From contig DUPH01000196.1 in the NCBI GenBank assembly GCA_012838435.1, positions 1-41,362 on the forward strand: DNA of 41,362 bases, written 5' to 3'. The translations under genes were made by a program, and so were the position numbers. Shown piece by piece: positions 19,810-27,652 of the stretch (positions are counted from its first letter, which is position 1; every line of letters begins with the position of its first letter). The stretch comes from Lentisphaerota bacterium (GTDB lineage: Bacteria; Verrucomicrobiota; Kiritimatiellia; RFP12; UBA1067). The notes beneath the pieces were generated by a model that saw nothing but the letters and a program-made list of their open reading frames with translations, ran no database searches and was not told the origin of the DNA.

Positions 19810-20841
19810 TCAGCCGTCCAGCGCGGCCAACAGCGCGTCGGTCTGGGATTCGGTCCCGATCGTGATACGCAAGTATTCTCCCGTCTCGGGGCCGGGAAAA
19901 TAACGCACGTAGATTTTCTCGGTCTTGAGCGCCTCAAAGAGCCGCGCGGCGTCGCCATCCGGCGGACGCGCGAACAGGAAGTTGGTTTGCGAATCGCAGA
20001 CTGTCCAACCGCGCTGACGCAGTTCCGTCGTCAGTCGGGCGCGGGTGGCGCGGATGCGCCGCACATTCTCCTGCATGTGCGGCAGGTCGTTCAACGCGGT
20101 CAGGCCTAGGATCTGCGCCAGCATGTCCATGTTGTACGAGTCCTTGATCTTATAGAGCGCACCGATCAACGCGGACGGGCCGATCACGTAGCCGAAACGC
20201 AGACCCGCCAACGAGAAGGACTTGGAGAGCGTACGCATCACCAGCGTGTTGGCGTTGTCCGCTGCCAAAGCTAGATCCATGCAGGTATCGTCGGCGAAGT
20301 CGCCGTACGCCTCATCGATCATCACCACGCCGCGGAAGGTGCGGCAGAAGGCGGAGACCGACGCCTTGTCGTGCATCAGGCTGGTCGGCGCGTTGGGGTT
20401 GGTGATGAAAAAGAGCGAAGCGGCGTCATCCGCCGGCGTACGCCATGTGAACCCCGGCCCCAGCGCAACCGGACGCCGCGTCACACCGCGGATATCCGTC
20501 AGCACCGGATAGAGCGAATAGGAAGGCTCGAAGTATCCCACGCTGCCGTCGTTCTCAACAAACGCGCGCGTGCAGAGCGCCAGAATCTCATCCGATCCGT
20601 TACCGACAAAAACCTGCTCGACCGTGCAGCCATGGATCTCGGCGATCCGTTGCCGCAGCGCCATGAAAACTGGGTCGGGGTAGAGGCGCAACCGGGCGGC
20701 ATCAAACGTGCGCAGCGCCTCGGCCACCTTGGGACTCGGCGCATAGGGATTCTCGTTGGTGTTGAGCTTGATGATACGCGCGTCTTTCGGCTGCTCACCG
20801 GGCGTGTAGGCTGTCAGGGCCTGAACATTTTTACAGATCAT
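19810..20841 (-). CDS. hisC: Histidinol-phosphate aminotransferase
   Basis: 343 residues, a usual length for HisC. The fold-type I PLP enzyme converts imidazole-acetol phosphate and glutamate to histidinol phosphate. Visible motifs are LNTNENPYAPSP, GNGSDEIL, FFITNPNAPTS, VMIDEAYGDF and the PLP-lysine segment TLSKSFSLAGLRFGY (Lys207). No other his gene is nearby. The last codons and stop lie in a 13-base tandem duplication (19798-19823), so a second LDG-stop follows the real one. A related aromatic or tyrosine aminotransferase role cannot be excluded. Confidence 0.9.
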   Translation of the reverse strand: MICKNVQALTAYTPGEQPKDARIIKLNTNENPYAPSPKVAEALRTFDAARLRLYPDPVFMALRQRIAEIHGCTVEQVFVGNGSDEILALCTRAFVENDGSVGYFEPSYSLYPVLTDIRGVTRRPVALGPGFTWRTPADDAASLFFITNPNAPTSLMHDKASVSAFCRTFRGVVMIDEAYGDFADDTCMDLALAADNANTLVMRTLSKSFSLAGLRFGYVIGPSALIGALYKIKDSYNMDMLAQILGLTALNDLPHMQENVRRIRATRARLTTELRQRGWTVCDSQTNFLFARPPDGDAARLFEALKTEKIYVRYFPGPETGEYLRITIGTESQTDALLAALDG

Positions 20842-20909: not shown

Positions 20910-21048
20910 AAGATTAGTGGCAGTGGTTGGTGGTTTCGGGTTTCATCACTAACGCACTAATGCCCCCTTCCTTTTCCATTGATTTTATGGCACTATGAAG
21001 ACGCGTTCAGATGCCACGGAAACCGCAATTTGAAAAAAGGAGAACACC

Positions 21049-22434
21049 GTGTCGGCCGAAATCACTCCGATTCTTAGTCCAGAAACCTCCCCAACTCTAC
21101 TTCCCCAAAAGCTCGGGTGGATCCCCACCTGGATCGTCGGCCGACGCTACTACGCTACAGTTCCTCCTGCCGACACCGCCCTCTTTTGCGAGCGTCAGCC
21201 CGACAATCCCCACGACGCCGACGCCATCGCCGTCTATGTGCCGGGCGGTGGCCAGGCGGGGCATCTGCCGCGCCACGACGCCGCTTACCTCGCACCGCTG
21301 GTTGATCGCGGTATCGTGCGTCTGGAAGCGCGGCTGGCCGGGCCGGACGATCCCGACAACCGCACACCAATCAGGCTGGAGGTCTGGGCCGCTGAACAGG
21401 TCGCCGATCTGGCCGGCCGTTCCGCCGACACCACCGAAGCGGTCTGGCACCATCAACTTCTGGGACTGTGGCAAAACCGGGCACGCTACACGCATACCGC
21501 GCTCGATGCATTTCGGGACGAGATGCGGCCGCTTTTCCATGCGGGCGGCCTGTGGCCCGAAACCCAGCTTTTCTACCGCCTGCTCAAAGGCACGGTCGCC
21601 GACGGCGTAGCGGTTGCGGAACAAGCCCGTCAGGAAGAGTTGAAACGCAAGGCCGAGGAGGCCGAACGCCGCCTTGCAGAACAATTGGCCGAGTGCCGTA
21701 CCGCGATTGCCTGCAAGCCGTGCGGTCCGCTGCTGCCGTTCGGCCACCTCTCCGTCCTGCCGTTGCGCGCAGTGCGTCCGACGGGAGTCATGCCGCTCGC
21801 GTCGGCCATACGCGAAGGCACCGCCGCAATCACCTGCCGCACGGAGACCGACTCCCTGTGCAAACTGCAGATGAGGGTAGAGCAAGGACACTGCGTGTTG
21901 GCGGTACAGCATGAGGTGCTCGACACAACGCTCGGTCGCGTCCGGGTTCTGCACGACTCTGTGTTCGCGCCCGGACTCGTGGAGAAAGAGTTGCTTTACG
22001 TCGTAAAAGCCGAGCGCGGCTCGTCCAAGCGGCGCAAGCCGGTTTTCATGGCCGATGCCGTCATGCCGGAGCCCGCCCTGCCCGAACTGCCGCAGGAGGC
22101 CACCGGGTTCGCCCTCTTCCGTGGTGTGAAGCCGCTGGAGATCGTGCTCTTCGCACATCCCGACTGCGCAGTCGCAGCGCTGCCCCTGCTGTGCATGCGC
22201 TCGTGGCATCTCAAACCCGCCACGCCCGAGCCGTCGGCTACCGAGGCCTTCGCCGCAATACAACCCATTTTTCTCGACACGGCGTTCAACATCAACCCGC
22301 CCTACATCAGCTTCACCGACAGCGCCCCCGGCGTCAGCGGCGTCGCCATGATCCTCAACAAGGGCCTCGTCTACCTGCGCGTTGAAATCAAAGAAGACGA
22401 CACATGCGAAAAGAAGCCCATTTGCGTTAATTGA
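21049..22434 (+). CDS. HIRAN-domain protein with ARPP-1-like C-terminal region
   Basis: 461 residues from a GTG start with AGGAG at eight bases. Residues ~28-105 form a HIRAN domain (WIVGRRYY, LFCERQPDNPHDADAIAVYV, then GHLPRHDAAYLAPLVDRG), a DNA-end or nucleic-acid-binding fold usually fused to helicases or nucleases. Residues ~190-225 are a short Glu/Arg/Ala coiled coil. Residues ~230-345 (PFGHLSVLPLRAVRPTG, then EGTAAITCRTETDSLCKLQ, VEQGHCVLAVQHEVLDTTLG) resemble the ARPP-1 domain. The last ~110 residues are unrecognised. A longer open frame exists on the opposite strand (21097-22545), but only this strand shows domains and a good ribosome site. It is followed after 27 bases by the FAD oxidoreductase. 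Confidence 0.75.
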   Translation: MSAEITPILSPETSPTLLPQKLGWIPTWIVGRRYYATVPPADTALFCERQPDNPHDADAIAVYVPGGGQAGHLPRHDAAYLAPLVDRGIVRLEARLAGPDDPDNRTPIRLEVWAAEQVADLAGRSADTTEAVWHHQLLGLWQNRARYTHTALDAFRDEMRPLFHAGGLWPETQLFYRLLKGTVADGVAVAEQARQEELKRKAEEAERRLAEQLAECRTAIACKPCGPLLPFGHLSVLPLRAVRPTGVMPLASAIREGTAAITCRTETDSLCKLQMRVEQGHCVLAVQHEVLDTTLGRVRVLHDSVFAPGLVEKELLYVVKAERGSSKRRKPVFMADAVMPEPALPELPQEATGFALFRGVKPLEIVLFAHPDCAVAALPLLCMRSWHLKPATPEPSATEAFAAIQPIFLDTAFNINPPYISFTDSAPGVSGVAMILNKGLVYLRVEIKEDDTCEKKPICVN

Positions 22435-22461
22435 AACGTCAAAAAAAGAGAAGGAGTAGAA

Positions 22462-23811
22462 ATGAACAGAAGAACATTTTTGAGTACGACGGCTTTGGCT
22501 GTGACGGGAATGAGGGCGCTGGCGCAGGAGACGATGGTTTTGCAACAGACTCCATCGCTTGATTCAATCGAAGAAAAACCGCGCAAAGTTCCTGTCGTGA
22601 AAGCGTGTGACGTGTGTGTGCTAGGCGGTGGCTGCACGGGTGTCTTTGCCGCCGTTCGGGCGGCGCAGATGGGCGCTCGTGTAGCACTGGTTGAAAAACA
22701 GAACGCATTTGGCGGCATGGCCACCGCAGGCATCGTCAACGTCTGGCACAAACTCATCAGCAATAGCCAAGACAGAAAGCAGATCATCGGCGGATTGACC
22801 GAGCAGGTGATCAAAAAGCTCGAACTGCTTGGGGCGGTAAATTCAGATGCCCACGGATTTTATCTCAATACTGAAGAGTTGAAAATTGAGCTTGATGCAC
22901 TTGTGTTGGAACATAAAATCACCCCGTATCTCAATACGGTTTATGTCGGTGCGCAACTGCAGCACAACCAGATCAACGCGGTTTTCATCGAGAATAAAAA
23001 TGGACGCCAGGCAATCAGGGCGAAGGTCTTTATCGATGCTACCGGCGATGGCGATCTGGCGATGCACGCCGGGCTACCGTTTGAAATACGCGATGGCCTA
23101 CAGCCGCCGACCACCTGTGCGAAAATCATCGGGTTGCCTAAAAATATCCGTAAGCTGATTGACGTGCATCGGGAGGAGTTCGGGCTGGTGCCAGACGCCA
23201 CATGGGATGCGGAAATCCCGAGCTCCAGCGGAGTTAAAATGTGCGCGTATCGTCATGTCTTCGATACGGTCGCCACCGATGCAGATCAGTTGACAGCCGC
23301 CGAGATCGAAGGGCGACGTCAAGTTCGTGTCTATATGAACATCGCACGAAAATATGGCGGAGAGTTTAATAAGCCCTGCCTGCTTGATCTGCCATCATCG
23401 CTCGGCATTCGCGAAACGAGATCATTTAGCGCCAACTACACGTTAACCGGTGAGGATGTGCTTGCATGCAGACGCTTCGAGGACGCGATCGCCAACGGGA
23501 CTTATCCCGTCGACATCCATGACCCTAAGACCGGCACATACAAGTTCCAGCGTTTAAAGGGTGATTTTTATCAAATCCCCTTTTCGACGATGGTAAGCGA
23601 CAAAAGTCCGAATCTTGTGTTGGCTGGCCGCATGATTTCGGCTGACCGCGTTGCGTTCGGTGCCGTGCGGGTGATGGTCAATCTCAATCAGACCGGTGAA
23701 GCCGCCGGAGTCGCGGCTGCGTTGGCGGTCTCAGGTTCAAAAACCGTACCGCAGATATCTGCGAAGGCCGTAAGGGAAAATCTGGCTAAACTCGGTGCGG
23801 TGATTATTTAA
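22462..23811 (+). CDS. Exported FAD-dependent oxidoreductase (FAD_oxidored family)
   Basis: 449 residues; AAGGAG before the ATG. The N-terminus (NRRTFLSTTALAVTGMRALA) is a twin-arginine-type signal. The FAD-binding Rossmann motif is GGGCTG (55-60) followed by LVEK at the end of strand two. Further family features are NAFGGMATAGIV, VFIDATGDGDLAMHAGLP and the C-terminal FAD-contacting VLAGRMISADRVAFGAVRVM. Proteins of this group are frequent in PVC and Bacteroidota near carbohydrate genes; substrates are mostly unknown. The coding sequence is visibly poorer in GC than its neighbours, with many A/T third positions, which may mark a later acquisition. Confidence 0.85.
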   Translation: MNRRTFLSTTALAVTGMRALAQETMVLQQTPSLDSIEEKPRKVPVVKACDVCVLGGGCTGVFAAVRAAQMGARVALVEKQNAFGGMATAGIVNVWHKLISNSQDRKQIIGGLTEQVIKKLELLGAVNSDAHGFYLNTEELKIELDALVLEHKITPYLNTVYVGAQLQHNQINAVFIENKNGRQAIRAKVFIDATGDGDLAMHAGLPFEIRDGLQPPTTCAKIIGLPKNIRKLIDVHREEFGLVPDATWDAEIPSSSGVKMCAYRHVFDTVATDADQLTAAEIEGRRQVRVYMNIARKYGGEFNKPCLLDLPSSLGIRETRSFSANYTLTGEDVLACRRFEDAIANGTYPVDIHDPKTGTYKFQRLKGDFYQIPFSTMVSDKSPNLVLAGRMISADRVAFGAVRVMVNLNQTGEAAGVAAALAVSGSKTVPQISAKAVRENLAKLGAVII

Positions 23812-24904: not shown

Positions 24905-25558
24905 TCAGCTATACTTCAAGCGCTGGAAGATGCCGTCGCAAATGTGATCTTCGAGGCGCTTGATCCACTCCTCATGGCTCACGTCCGGCGGACGGAACCG
25001 CGCCCCCCACCCTTGCTTGGTCAAGGCGTAGATCACGCATTGCGATTGGATGTTGCTGGCCCAGAGGGCAAGCGTCACGGGGTCGTCATCCTGCAAGCCC
25101 ATGCGCAAGAGACGCAGGAAGCATTGGCGCACCGGTTTGGCGAACTTTTCTTCGATATCGTACGTCAGGTCTGACGGCACGCACTCTTCAAGCGCCATCA
25201 GACGCGCCACCCAGAGTTCGGGCGGTTTTTGCGCCGCGCAAATTTGCAGTGAACGTGCCACCCACGTCCGCACGGCCCGCTGCCACGAGGCTGCATCAGT
25301 AACGGTGTCGGGGATTGTCAGCAGTGTCTTGCCCATATTTTCGAACAGGGTCGCGATCACCGCCTTGTAAAGCTCAGCCTTGGAATGAAAGTAGTAATTC
25401 ACGAGCGCAACGTTAACTCCGGCCTTCGCGCAAATCATGCGCGTCGTGGCGGCGCGGAAGCCGTGCTCGGCGAAGGTTTCGGCCGCAGCGTCCAATATCT
25501 TCTGGCGCGTGCTGACAGGATCATCTGCCGCGATAATTTTTGTTTGTGATTTCTTCAC
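24905..25558 (-). CDS. TetR/AcrR-family transcriptional regulator
   Basis: 217 residues from a GTG start that overlaps the ptsI stop (GTGA). The N-terminal HTH is clear: TRQKILDAAAETFAEHGFRA, then TTRMICAKAGVNVALVNYYF, HSKAELYKAV (residues ~17-66). The C-terminal ligand domain resembles the CecR/DUF1956-type subgroup. Such proteins repress efflux or stress genes upon ligand binding; the ligand and targets are unknown. Its position as the last gene of the PTS operon means it is co-expressed with it, and no divergent target gene is present. Confidence 0.85.
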   Translation of the reverse strand: MKKSQTKIIAADDPVSTRQKILDAAAETFAEHGFRAATTRMICAKAGVNVALVNYYFHSKAELYKAVIATLFENMGKTLLTIPDTVTDAASWQRAVRTWVARSLQICAAQKPPELWVARLMALEECVPSDLTYDIEEKFAKPVRQCFLRLLRMGLQDDDPVTLALWASNIQSQCVIYALTKQGWGARFRPPDVSHEEWIKRLEDHICDGIFQRLKYS

Positions 25559-27366
25559 TGTAAATAGAGAAGATCCGGTACCAGCTTGATGAGCTGGTTA
25601 CGACAGAAAGCGTAAATCTGGTCGGCCGGTGTGCCCATCATGCGCCGTACACTGTCGGCCAGCGCCTTGGCGTCGGCAAACGAAATCTGGCTGATGGCCC
25701 GTTTCACAAGGCGGATGAGATTCGGCGACATGCTGAGTTCATCCACGCCCATGCCGATAAATAACATCGCCATCACCGGATCGGCCGCCGTTTCGCCGCA
25801 CACCGAAACCCTCAGGCCGTTGGCATGCGCGGCCGTCACAGCAAGGTCGATCAATTGCAGCACGGCCGGATGTGTCGGTTGATAGAGACGCGCGACCGTT
25901 TCATTCACGCGGTCAACAGCCAGCGTGTACTGGATCAGGTCGTTGGTACCGATCGAGAAAAACTCGCACTCCTTGGCCAGCGCATCCGCGATCAGTGCCG
26001 CAGCCGGAACTTCGATCATCACACCACGCTGGATCGATTCGTCAAAGGGGATGCCTTGGGCCTTCAGTTCAGCCATGCAGGTGTGCAGTTCCATGTTGGC
26101 GGCATGCAGTTCATCAATCGTCGTGACCATCGGGTACAGGATCTGCACGTTGCCGTGCGCGCTGGCGCGCAGAACGGCACGCAGTTGGCGATGAAAGACA
26201 TCGGGATTGCGCAAAAGGAAGCGGATCGAGCGGTTACCCAGGAACGGATTGGCCTCTCTGTGCATTATGCCGCCGCTTTTGGGCATCTTGTCGCCGCCCA
26301 GATCCAACACGCGTATAGCAACCGCTTGTCCGTCCGGCAAAGCGCGCGCCACCTCCGTATATGCCTGCGTCTGCTCCTCCTCGCTCGGCTCGCGGTCTTC
26401 TTGCAGCCACAAGTACTCAGTGCGGTAGAGGCCGATTCCCTCGGCACCGGCCGTATGCAGATCGGCCAGCGCCGTACTGCTGTCGACATTCGCTAAAAAC
26501 GGCACAGGGCGGACATCCAGTGTGCGCCCCGGTTGCATCGTGGCTTGTTCCAGCGACTCTGTCAGCGTCCGCGAGCGGGCCATCATTTTTTCAAAGGCTG
26601 CGCGCTCTTCACTGTCCGGATTGACGACCACCTTGCCGCGCGTCCCATCGAGCAACAGCAGGTCACCGCTCTTGACGTGTGCCGAAAGCGCGCCCAGTCC
26701 GACCACGGCGGGAATACCCAGCGCACGCGCCAGCAATGAAGCGTGCGACGTGGTACTACCGCGGTCGGTGGCAAACCCGAGGATCTGATGCTTGGGGAGC
26801 GAAATTGCCTCAGAGGGCGAGAGTTCGTCTGCCACCACGATGCACGGATACTCCACGCGCAACGCAGACGCATCACTGCCGACGCCCGACAAATTACGCA
26901 GAATACGTTTTACGATATCGCCGACATCCTGCGCACGCTCGCGCAAATAGGAGTCGTCCATCGCATCGAAAATGGACGAGTAGGTGTCGGCAACCTGCTT
27001 GACCGCTGCCTCGGCGTTACGCAGGTCTTTAACGATTTTTTCTTTGCAGGTACTCTGTAGAGTCGGATCATCAAGAATCATCAGATGACCGTCAAAAATG
27101 GAGGCTTCATCACCGTTGATGCGTTTTTTCAACTCCTGCGCCAGCGTATTGATCTGCGTCCGCGTCAACGCAAACGCATCCACCAGCCGTGCCACTTCAT
27201 GTTCGACCTGTTCCGGCTCGATCCGGTATTCCGGCACCTGCTCGCTGGAACCGGCACGATACAGAAAGGCCGGCCCCATGACGAATCCACGGGAAACGGC
27301 TAGTCCTGTCATTACGCGCATCTCGTCACGCGCGGTATCGCAGGCGGCATGTGTGTCACTGTTCAT
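25555..27366 (-). CDS. ptsI: Phosphoenolpyruvate-protein phosphotransferase (enzyme I)
   Basis: 603 residues from the ATG at 27366, which overlaps the end of ptsH by 11 bases; an upstream in-frame start (27417) lies inside ptsH, and 27321 is an alternative. Enzyme I takes phosphate from PEP and passes it to HPr. Seen: GLAVSRGFVMGPAFLY at the head, the phospho-histidine segment DRGSTTSHASLLARALGIPA (His208), the LYRTEYLW and REANPFLGNRSIR segments of the PEP-binding barrel, FFSIGTNDLIQYTLAVDR, and CGETAADP with MGVDELSMSPN. All catalytic regions look intact. The cognate HPr and HPr kinase are directly upstream; no EIIA/B/C genes are present. Confidence 0.95.
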   Translation of the reverse strand: MNSDTHAACDTARDEMRVMTGLAVSRGFVMGPAFLYRAGSSEQVPEYRIEPEQVEHEVARLVDAFALTRTQINTLAQELKKRINGDEASIFDGHLMILDDPTLQSTCKEKIVKDLRNAEAAVKQVADTYSSIFDAMDDSYLRERAQDVGDIVKRILRNLSGVGSDASALRVEYPCIVVADELSPSEAISLPKHQILGFATDRGSTTSHASLLARALGIPAVVGLGALSAHVKSGDLLLLDGTRGKVVVNPDSEERAAFEKMMARSRTLTESLEQATMQPGRTLDVRPVPFLANVDSSTALADLHTAGAEGIGLYRTEYLWLQEDREPSEEEQTQAYTEVARALPDGQAVAIRVLDLGGDKMPKSGGIMHREANPFLGNRSIRFLLRNPDVFHRQLRAVLRASAHGNVQILYPMVTTIDELHAANMELHTCMAELKAQGIPFDESIQRGVMIEVPAAALIADALAKECEFFSIGTNDLIQYTLAVDRVNETVARLYQPTHPAVLQLIDLAVTAAHANGLRVSVCGETAADPVMAMLFIGMGVDELSMSPNLIRLVKRAISQISFADAKALADSVRRMMGTPADQIYAFCRNQLIKLVPDLLYLQ

Positions 27367-27652
27367 CGGGAATATCGAACTTACGGGCGACCAGCGCCTC
27401 CAACTCATCAAGTACATCGTGCGACTGCGGACCGGATGCCGTAACCTTAAGCTTGGTGCCGCACACTGCTTCCAGCGTCATCAAGGCCATAATGCTCTTG
27501 CCGGACACGACGGTTCCGTCCTTTTCGACATCGACTTCAGCATTGAAGCGTGATGCCACCTTGGCGAAAAGTCCCGCCGGACGGACATGCATGCCGTATT
27601 TATTCAGCAGCACGAATTCCCGGGTTTCTTTGTTTGTAGTAGTCTTGGCCAC
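27356..27652 (-). CDS. ptsH: HPr-family phosphocarrier protein
   Basis: 98 residues from a GTG start with GGAG nine bases before. His22 in NKYGMHVRPAGLFAK is the enzyme I phosphorylation site. Ser53 in VSGKSIMALMTLEA is the regulatory site, 31 residues later as in Gram-positive HPr, consistent with the HPr kinase next door. It couples enzyme I to acceptors; in the absence of sugar permeases here a regulatory role is likely (inference). Confidence 0.95.
   Translation of the reverse strand: MAKTTTNKETREFVLLNKYGMHVRPAGLFAKVASRFNAEVDVEKDGTVVSGKSIMALMTLEAVCGTKLKVTASGPQSHDVLDELEALVARKFDIPDEQ

Follow-up and report, generated by a model that had tools for sequence, protein, structure and literature searches.

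A Verrucomicrobiota protein joining a HIRAN domain to a remote ARPP-1-like region, with relatives beside CRISPR-Cas genes

Iyer et al. (2022; PMC9503650) reported that genes of the ARPP family (PF20208, DUF6569) recur in conserved pairs, either with the gene of a HIRAN protein or with that of a WYL regulator, and the association of HIRAN and ARPP genes is in this sense already known. The fold of the ARPP proteins, according to the same paper, is a beta-meander that has been duplicated, the first copy containing an inserted barrel; this barrel carries absolutely conserved residues, a Cys and a Gln among them, and an SRAP-like covalent chemistry on sugars has been proposed for it, the catalysis of ARPP-1 itself being presented as a prediction only (PMC9503650). 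HIRAN fusions, loss of the barrel or a pseudo-enzyme state, and CRISPR neighbors are all absent from section 3.8 of that article, taken apart from its supplement. Literature searches returned nothing under DUF6569 and, judged by title, no related work on ARPP-1 together with rhodanese.

On the HIRAN side, F142 of human HLTF is needed for duplex binding, and this residue is missing from most of the bacterial HIRAN domains compared in the same study (PMC8262856). The HIRAN domain of yeast Rad5 keeps 2 of 10 HLTF residues for single-stranded DNA (ssDNA) and binds ssDNA with a dispensable free 3' hydroxyl (PMC7804152), so that specificity for 3' ends is not implied by the HIRAN name. Bacterial HIRAN proteins that lack a helicase have also been described, namely HipL and HipN, in which HIRAN is accompanied by HipS-like and kinase domains and which their authors propose as possible sensors of DNA ends in phage defense (PMC8262856). 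Regarding regulation, WYL has been presented as a regulator of CRISPR-Cas systems (PMC4012209); searches for HIRAN with WYL gave mostly unrelated word matches among the matches listed, and no IrrE-type/XRE regulator with a CRISPR-associated operon was found in titles and the beginnings of abstracts.

The gene considered here lies in a stretch of 41,362 nucleotides (hereafter the window; contig DUPH01000196.1, assembly GCA_012838435.1) from a Lentisphaerota bacterium whose genome we denote G000, and its features are collected in table 1. Two orthologs (P0001 and P0002) were found, one with 72% identity in Verrucomicrobia bacterium ADurb.Bin070 (G001, contig L009) and one with 52% identity in G007 (L003), which together with the window protein form what we call the window clade. 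The leader AAAAAAGGAGAACACC stands 5' of the GTG codon in the window and AAAAAAGGAGAACGCC stands 5' of an ATG codon in L009; because the two are almost identical in relatives that share 72% of their residues, the GTG start is credible. Between these two genes, dN/dS is 0.28 overall and, by segment, 0.23 for the HIRAN domain, 0.10 for the helical extension (the lowest among six segments), 0.26 for residues 216-344, and 0.47 for residues 345-450: the window gene is under purifying selection and encodes a constrained protein. An antisense open reading frame (ORF) of 482 aa (21097-22545) was also considered as a real gene and was rejected because the orthologs and dN/dS agree with the + strand.

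Table 1. Features of the HIRAN-ARPP-like gene and its neighbors, in window coordinates.
Feature	Position	Strand	Basis
Gene of the HIRAN-ARPP-like protein	21049..22434	+	single ORF, GTG start, 461 aa; orthologs and dN/dS
Ribosome-binding site AGGAG, 5' of the GTG start	21038..21042	+	sequence; near-identical L009 leader
HIRAN domain, residues 29-114; predicted ssDNA-end binder	21133..21390	+	PF08797, HLTF alignment
Helical extension, residues 115-186	21391..21606	+	common to the wider family together with HIRAN
Predicted long helix or possible coiled coil, residues 187-219	21607..21705	+	low-confidence model
ARPP-1-like first part with degenerate barrel, residues 220-344	21706..22080	+	hhalign; motif scan
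ARPP-1-like second part, residues 345-450, with EATGFAxFRG stretch	22081..22398	+	hhalign to residue 412
Neighbor: FAD-dependent oxidoreductase, regarded as outside the system	22462..23811	+	PF12831, E 4e-93
Neighbor: hisC, divergent, at the position of the IrrE-type gene of G001/G007	19810..20841	-	TIGR01141 above cut-off

The HIRAN domain announced in the original prediction is borne out by profile searches: PF08797, the sole Pfam match in the window protein, was found with E 3e-15 and 56.2 bits (curated cut-off 24.7), and a profile of the three orthologs matched the human HLTF HIRAN structures 2MZN, 4S0N, 5BNH, 4XZF, and 4XZG with E values of 5e-10 to 1e-9. In the resulting alignment, R71, Y72, Y73, N91, D94, and H110 of HLTF face identical residues of the window protein (R33, Y34, Y35, N53, D56, and H72), K113 faces R75, and Y93 faces H55. 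With K113, the first six make up what we take, numbering included, to be the ssDNA pocket of HLTF, six of whose seven residues are thus identical. The position of F142 is not a Phe, which points to the binding of ssDNA rather than of a duplex, and from its sequence this HIRAN domain is predicted to bind ssDNA ends, perhaps with end specificity. PADLOC returned a weak match to its PDC-M03B model, apparently HipN-like, restricted to the HIRAN part (E 0.018). The HIRAN domain had also been said normally to accompany helicases or nucleases; HipL and HipN are known without a helicase (PMC8262856), and Cas3, Cas9, and DruE/DpdE-like genes do occur, as described below, but as neighbors of relatives.

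Within the window protein itself, no helicase or nuclease domain was named by Pfam, NCBIfam, PHROGs, or PADLOC, and the proposed architecture, a single chain with HIRAN and an ARPP-1-like region but no recognized helicase or nuclease domain, agrees with these searches and with the PF08797 and hhalign results. Of the coiled coil proposed between the two regions, only a helix was recovered (residues 170-219), hinted at by a poor structure prediction made from two sequences (pLDDT 33.5) and usable for helix hints only.

The ARPP-1-like assignment of the C-terminal part is more delicate. PF20208 gave no match to the window protein up to E 10, and none to P0001 and P0002 up to E 1; a search of the window's own genome found none either, no control genome matching in that search, though the same model, run on 96 genomes from the phylum, did match in two. 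Profile-profile comparison told otherwise: aligned by hhalign with five ARPP-1 sequences, the C-terminal part of the three orthologs reached a probability of 88.6 and E 2.7e-6 over 158 columns, with a score of 48.4 against 24.6 for the best of 150 column shuffles and 11.8 for the reversed alignment, and it still reached a probability of 73.2 (E 3e-5) when the G274 row was removed. With eight ARPP-1 sequences, these values rose to a probability of 93.4 and E 2.6e-7 over 184 columns, spanning window residues 226-412 (55.3 against 22.0 for the best of 100 shuffles). Other comparisons weaken this link, namely those of the window-clade C-termini with four fusions alone (probability 39, E 3e-4, 26 columns), of single sequences with ARPP-1 (probability 21 for the window protein and 11 for P0002), and of the barrel-less members with the window clade (probability 0.9). 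Taken as a group, six members with a short barrel stretch (G044 left aside) matched ARPP-1 with a probability of 58.7, or 81.3 with more rows (44.6 against 18.3 for the best of 100 shuffles), and the G348 protein alone had a sub-threshold PF20208 match (0.0017).

Related HIRAN proteins also carry a full-length ARPP-1 domain in the same chain: one fusion in G274 (L041; HIRAN 1.5e-18, ARPP-1 1.5e-67) and three in G649 (ARPP-1 4.7e-71, 3.5e-71, and 2.8e-72). On account of these fusions and of the profile-profile comparison of the orthologs, the C-terminal part of the window protein appears to be a remote ARPP-1 domain, although PF20208 itself does not match it. The ARPP-like part of the original prediction therefore holds at the level of profile-profile comparison and not of a direct PF20208 match, and two further points call for correction: the C-terminus set apart as unrecognized includes the second part of the ARPP-1-like region, residues 226-412 aligning to ARPP-1, and the architecture is not an isolated one, four related genes in two genomes joining HIRAN to a full ARPP-1. 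The EATGFAxFRG stretch of this second part aligns across P0001, P0002, and P0003, the last being a protein of G044.

We take the conserved Gln and Cys of the ARPP barrel to correspond to the motifs GxxQ(N/D/H)R and C(V/T/I)E...RW. Both motifs are present in four of four stand-alone ARPP-1 proteins (alignment read by eye) and, by motif scan, in four of four fusions of G274 and G649, and both are missing from all three window-clade proteins; the window protein has three Cys in its barrel stretch, all ahead of the place of the Cys motif. The stretch between the motifs that mark the ends of ARPP measures 172-176 residues in the fusions, 109-110 in the window clade, and 35-44 in seven other members that lack a full ARPP-1 match (two in G343, two in G405, and one each in G348, G350, and G044). 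Read in this light, what remains of the barrel in the window protein would be worn, and in the seven shorter members it seems to be gone. Since the motifs thought to be catalytic are absent from the whole window clade, its ARPP-like domain is probably a pseudo-enzyme. This bears directly on the idea of an active ARPP enzyme that HIRAN delivers to DNA ends, where it would act on, or cross-link to, ribose moieties in an SRAP-like manner (Iyer et al. 2022): the proposed chemistry (PMC9503650) and the intact motifs of the four fusions are compatible with it, but the Gln and Cys motifs gone from the window protein and from two of two orthologs, and the shortened barrel stretch in seven of seven other members, make it a very unlikely account of this gene.

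A search across the phylum (387 genomes) retrieved proteins that share the HIRAN domain and its helical extension, the G274 fusion being one of them. Complete or nearly complete members were found in 6 genomes out of 345 in the window's class and in 4 out of 197 in a second class, although many of these genomes are incomplete. In a tree of the HIRAN and helical parts, the window protein and its G001 and G007 orthologs group together with support of 100/100, their placement among the other branches being unsettled. Around this core, the architecture varies. In G025 and G036 (L043 508-1527 and L042), HIRAN and the helical extension are joined to a different C-terminus, which in G025 shows a sub-threshold TY-Chap1 match (E 0.047), TY-Chap1 being another domain of ARG-centered systems (PMC9503650), and DNA methyltransferase genes lie some kilobases from the HIRAN gene in both genomes. 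G044 (L006, P0003) and G540 (L127 7806-9020) encode longer proteins in which HIRAN is preceded by a Cys-rich N-terminal part; to the eye, P0003 has a SWIM-like CxC...CxH motif, and HIRAN is its sole Pfam match above cut-off. A short HIRAN protein is divergent from a WYL regulator in G241 (L047, 516-1088 and 1235-2290), and a stand-alone ARPP-1 gene is divergent from a WYL gene in G105 (L033), which fits the pair described in PMC9503650.

Mobile elements gave little. No relative was found on viral contigs with three single-protein queries, and plasmids held no match to the window protein or the G348 protein; the G274 fusion retrieved three plasmid records, all of which contain an ARPP-1 (DUF6569) gene. 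The G348 protein retrieved 14 phage records, in which the match was limited to its residues 4-125, that is, to HIRAN; these are proteins of Pseudomonas and Xanthomonas phages (hits H4 to H17), some of them annotated as HIRAN or as helicase-like transcription factor.

The neighborhoods of the relatives are where a possible link with defense comes into view. In G007, the HIRAN-ARPP gene follows an M78 gene truncated at the end of its contig and runs into a type I-G cas operon, with cas3g, csx17, csb1, csb2, cas4g/cas1g, and an array of 18 repeats; in G343, a WYL regulator, a HIRAN-ARPP gene, a small acidic ORF, a second HIRAN-ARPP gene, cas9, cas1, and cas2 succeed one another on one strand. Two relatives thus have a regulator, a HIRAN-ARPP gene, and then cas genes on a single strand, a placement seen in G007 and G343 and not in the window, where a reading of the ORFs showed no cas gene and the direct repeats included no CRISPR-like array. 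In G649, DruE-like and DpdE-like helicase genes come after one fusion and type I restriction-modification genes after another, with a small ORF in between each time. The small acidic ORF of G343 (L039 6637-6939) encodes 101 aa with a hydrophobic tail and has no Pfam match.

We counted 12 HIRAN-ARPP loci (one each in G000, G001, G007, G044, G343, G348, G350, G405, and G274, and three in G649), leaving out G025, G036, and G241, in which the C-terminus is either unlike ARPP or missing, and G464, where the gene is broken. Defense genes adjoin four of the 12 (G007, G343, and two of G649), a raw count; seven, the window included, show no clear defense gene in the fetched stretch, mostly as judged from ORFs; and one, on a G649 contig of 3.6 kb, is too short to tell. 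PADLOC left nine of ten neighbor proteins from five of these seven loci (G348, G044, G001, G274, and G350) without a match. The tenth, an ORF upstream of the HIRAN-ARPP gene in G348 (L037 7872-9344), matches Argonaute-associated SIR2-PNTD models in part (2.9e-17) and was not counted as defense, and two small ORFs near the gene in G001 resemble an antitoxin-toxin pair by eye, with no PADLOC match. Because the pattern was noticed after looking and the count is raw, the placement of HIRAN-ARPP genes beside defense genes is suggestive only.

These same counts leave some room for a housekeeping protein of DNA repair or of the replication fork, in which HIRAN would sit on DNA ends where forks have stalled, with the ARPP-like domain recruiting repair factors, the defense neighbors being coincidental since defense islands gather many genes. 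The HIRAN domain of HLTF/Rad5 works at forks (PMC7804152), seven of 12 loci are without a clear defense neighbor in the fetched stretch, and the broken HIRAN-helical gene of G464 (L107 514-1047), which has a stop inside the match, adjoins recR. We nevertheless hold this reading to be rather unlikely, given a distribution as patchy as the one reported above, many incomplete genomes notwithstanding, and given that two lineages have the gene in an operon-like series with a regulator and cas genes.

IrrE-type and WYL regulators are sensors of DNA damage or of ssDNA. In G001, an XRE-M78 (IrrE-type) gene ends 23 nt upstream of the HIRAN-ARPP gene, with no cas gene in the 15 kb covered, and the M78 gene of G007, in the portion that the contig end has spared, is 71% identical to it. 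A homolog with 67% identity exists in the window's genome on another contig (C335; L100), directly before cas3 and cse1, and the same order of regulator and cas3 is found in G003 (65%; L101, C328), while in G087 (54%; L102, C186) the regulator is followed by a 584-aa protein with no NCBIfam or Pfam match and then by a cas3 HD gene. Matches were obtained in 35 genomes, of which G003, G000, G087, G007, G012, G006, and G028 had their neighbors examined: the four closest homologs (G003, G000, G087, and G007) adjoin cas genes, in G007 with the HIRAN-ARPP gene in between; partial copies (G012:C56 and G007:C363) have their downstream side cut by contig ends; and no cas gene was seen beside the distant homologs of G006 and G028 (about 40%). 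Standing beside cas genes, the XRE-M78 regulator therefore connects the HIRAN-ARPP gene to CRISPR also in genomes that have them at separate places.

Because the nearest regulator homolog of the window's genome lies on another contig, beside cas3-cse1, the HIRAN-ARPP protein would there act in trans, or its gene would have been separated from the regulator. Pushed further, the latter view makes of the gene a decaying remnant, deprived of its regulator and cas partners and of any present function; a regulator adjacent in G001 and G007 yet not in the window, the C-terminal dN/dS of 0.47, and the broken copy in G464 would all be expected of such a remnant, which the intact frame, the retained ribosome-binding site, and the overall dN/dS of 0.28 make a poor prospect for the window gene.

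The immediate surroundings of the gene suggested another partner. As originally proposed, it is adjacent to a gene for an FAD oxidoreductase, 27 nt downstream on the same strand; this pairing is local, no FAD oxidoreductase adjoining the HIRAN-ARPP gene in G001 or G007, and the oxidoreductase was rejected as a conserved partner. That the two would work together from one operon is extremely unlikely in our view, the more so as a redox enzyme and a DNA-binding domain have no evident functional link. A gene that looks like PTS enzyme I by eye lies within about 7 kb of the HIRAN gene in both the window (25555-27417) and G001 (L035 679-2526), which suggests a chromosomal region shared within the genus.

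On the whole, we give roughly even chances to the view that this protein is a DNA-end-binding accessory of defense or DNA-damage operons. Its HIRAN domain would hold ssDNA, probably with a free 3' end; its ARPP-like domain would no longer do chemistry and might instead bind either a partner protein or a ligand, nucleotide or sugar; and the whole could report DNA ends to the defense or DNA-damage apparatus, or recruit it, under an IrrE-type (XRE-M78) or WYL regulator. A bolder version, which we regard as doubtful, is that the HIRAN-ARPP proteins of Verrucomicrobiota form an unrecognized accessory family of CRISPR-Cas and of other DNA-targeting defense, sensing 3' ends and signaling to the IrrE-type protease or WYL regulator. 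If this were so, the ends sensed could be those made by Cas3, by Cas9, by spacer acquisition, or by restriction, the regulator thus signaled could set the expression of the defense operon, and the ARPP domain may have been an enzyme at the start, as in the intact fusions, and later a signaling or scaffold module in the cas-linked branches. Were it true, the loose association in print of a HIRAN gene beside an ARPP gene would become a physical one, ARPP domains could be said to persist without their proposed catalytic residues, an IrrE-type protease regulator would, in this lineage, be linked with type I-G and type I-E cas operons, and there would be a testable route by which DNA ends tune CRISPR expression.

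Among the closest systems described so far are the WYL regulators of CRISPR-Cas, which the WYL gene ahead of HIRAN-ARPP and cas9 in G343 recalls, although the word HIRAN is absent from the main text of that paper (PMC4012209). Like HipN and HipL, the window protein is a bacterial HIRAN protein without a helicase, but Pfam detected no kinase or HipS-like domain in it. It resembles HLTF in the sequence of its HIRAN domain and in retaining most of the ssDNA-pocket residues, and differs from it in having no detected SNF2 helicase or RING and no Phe at the position of Phe142. Finally, the C-terminal part is remotely homologous to the ARPP of Iyer et al. (2022; PMC9503650), with the difference that its Gln and Cys motifs are gone and that HIRAN and ARPP, described there as paired genes, are here one chain.
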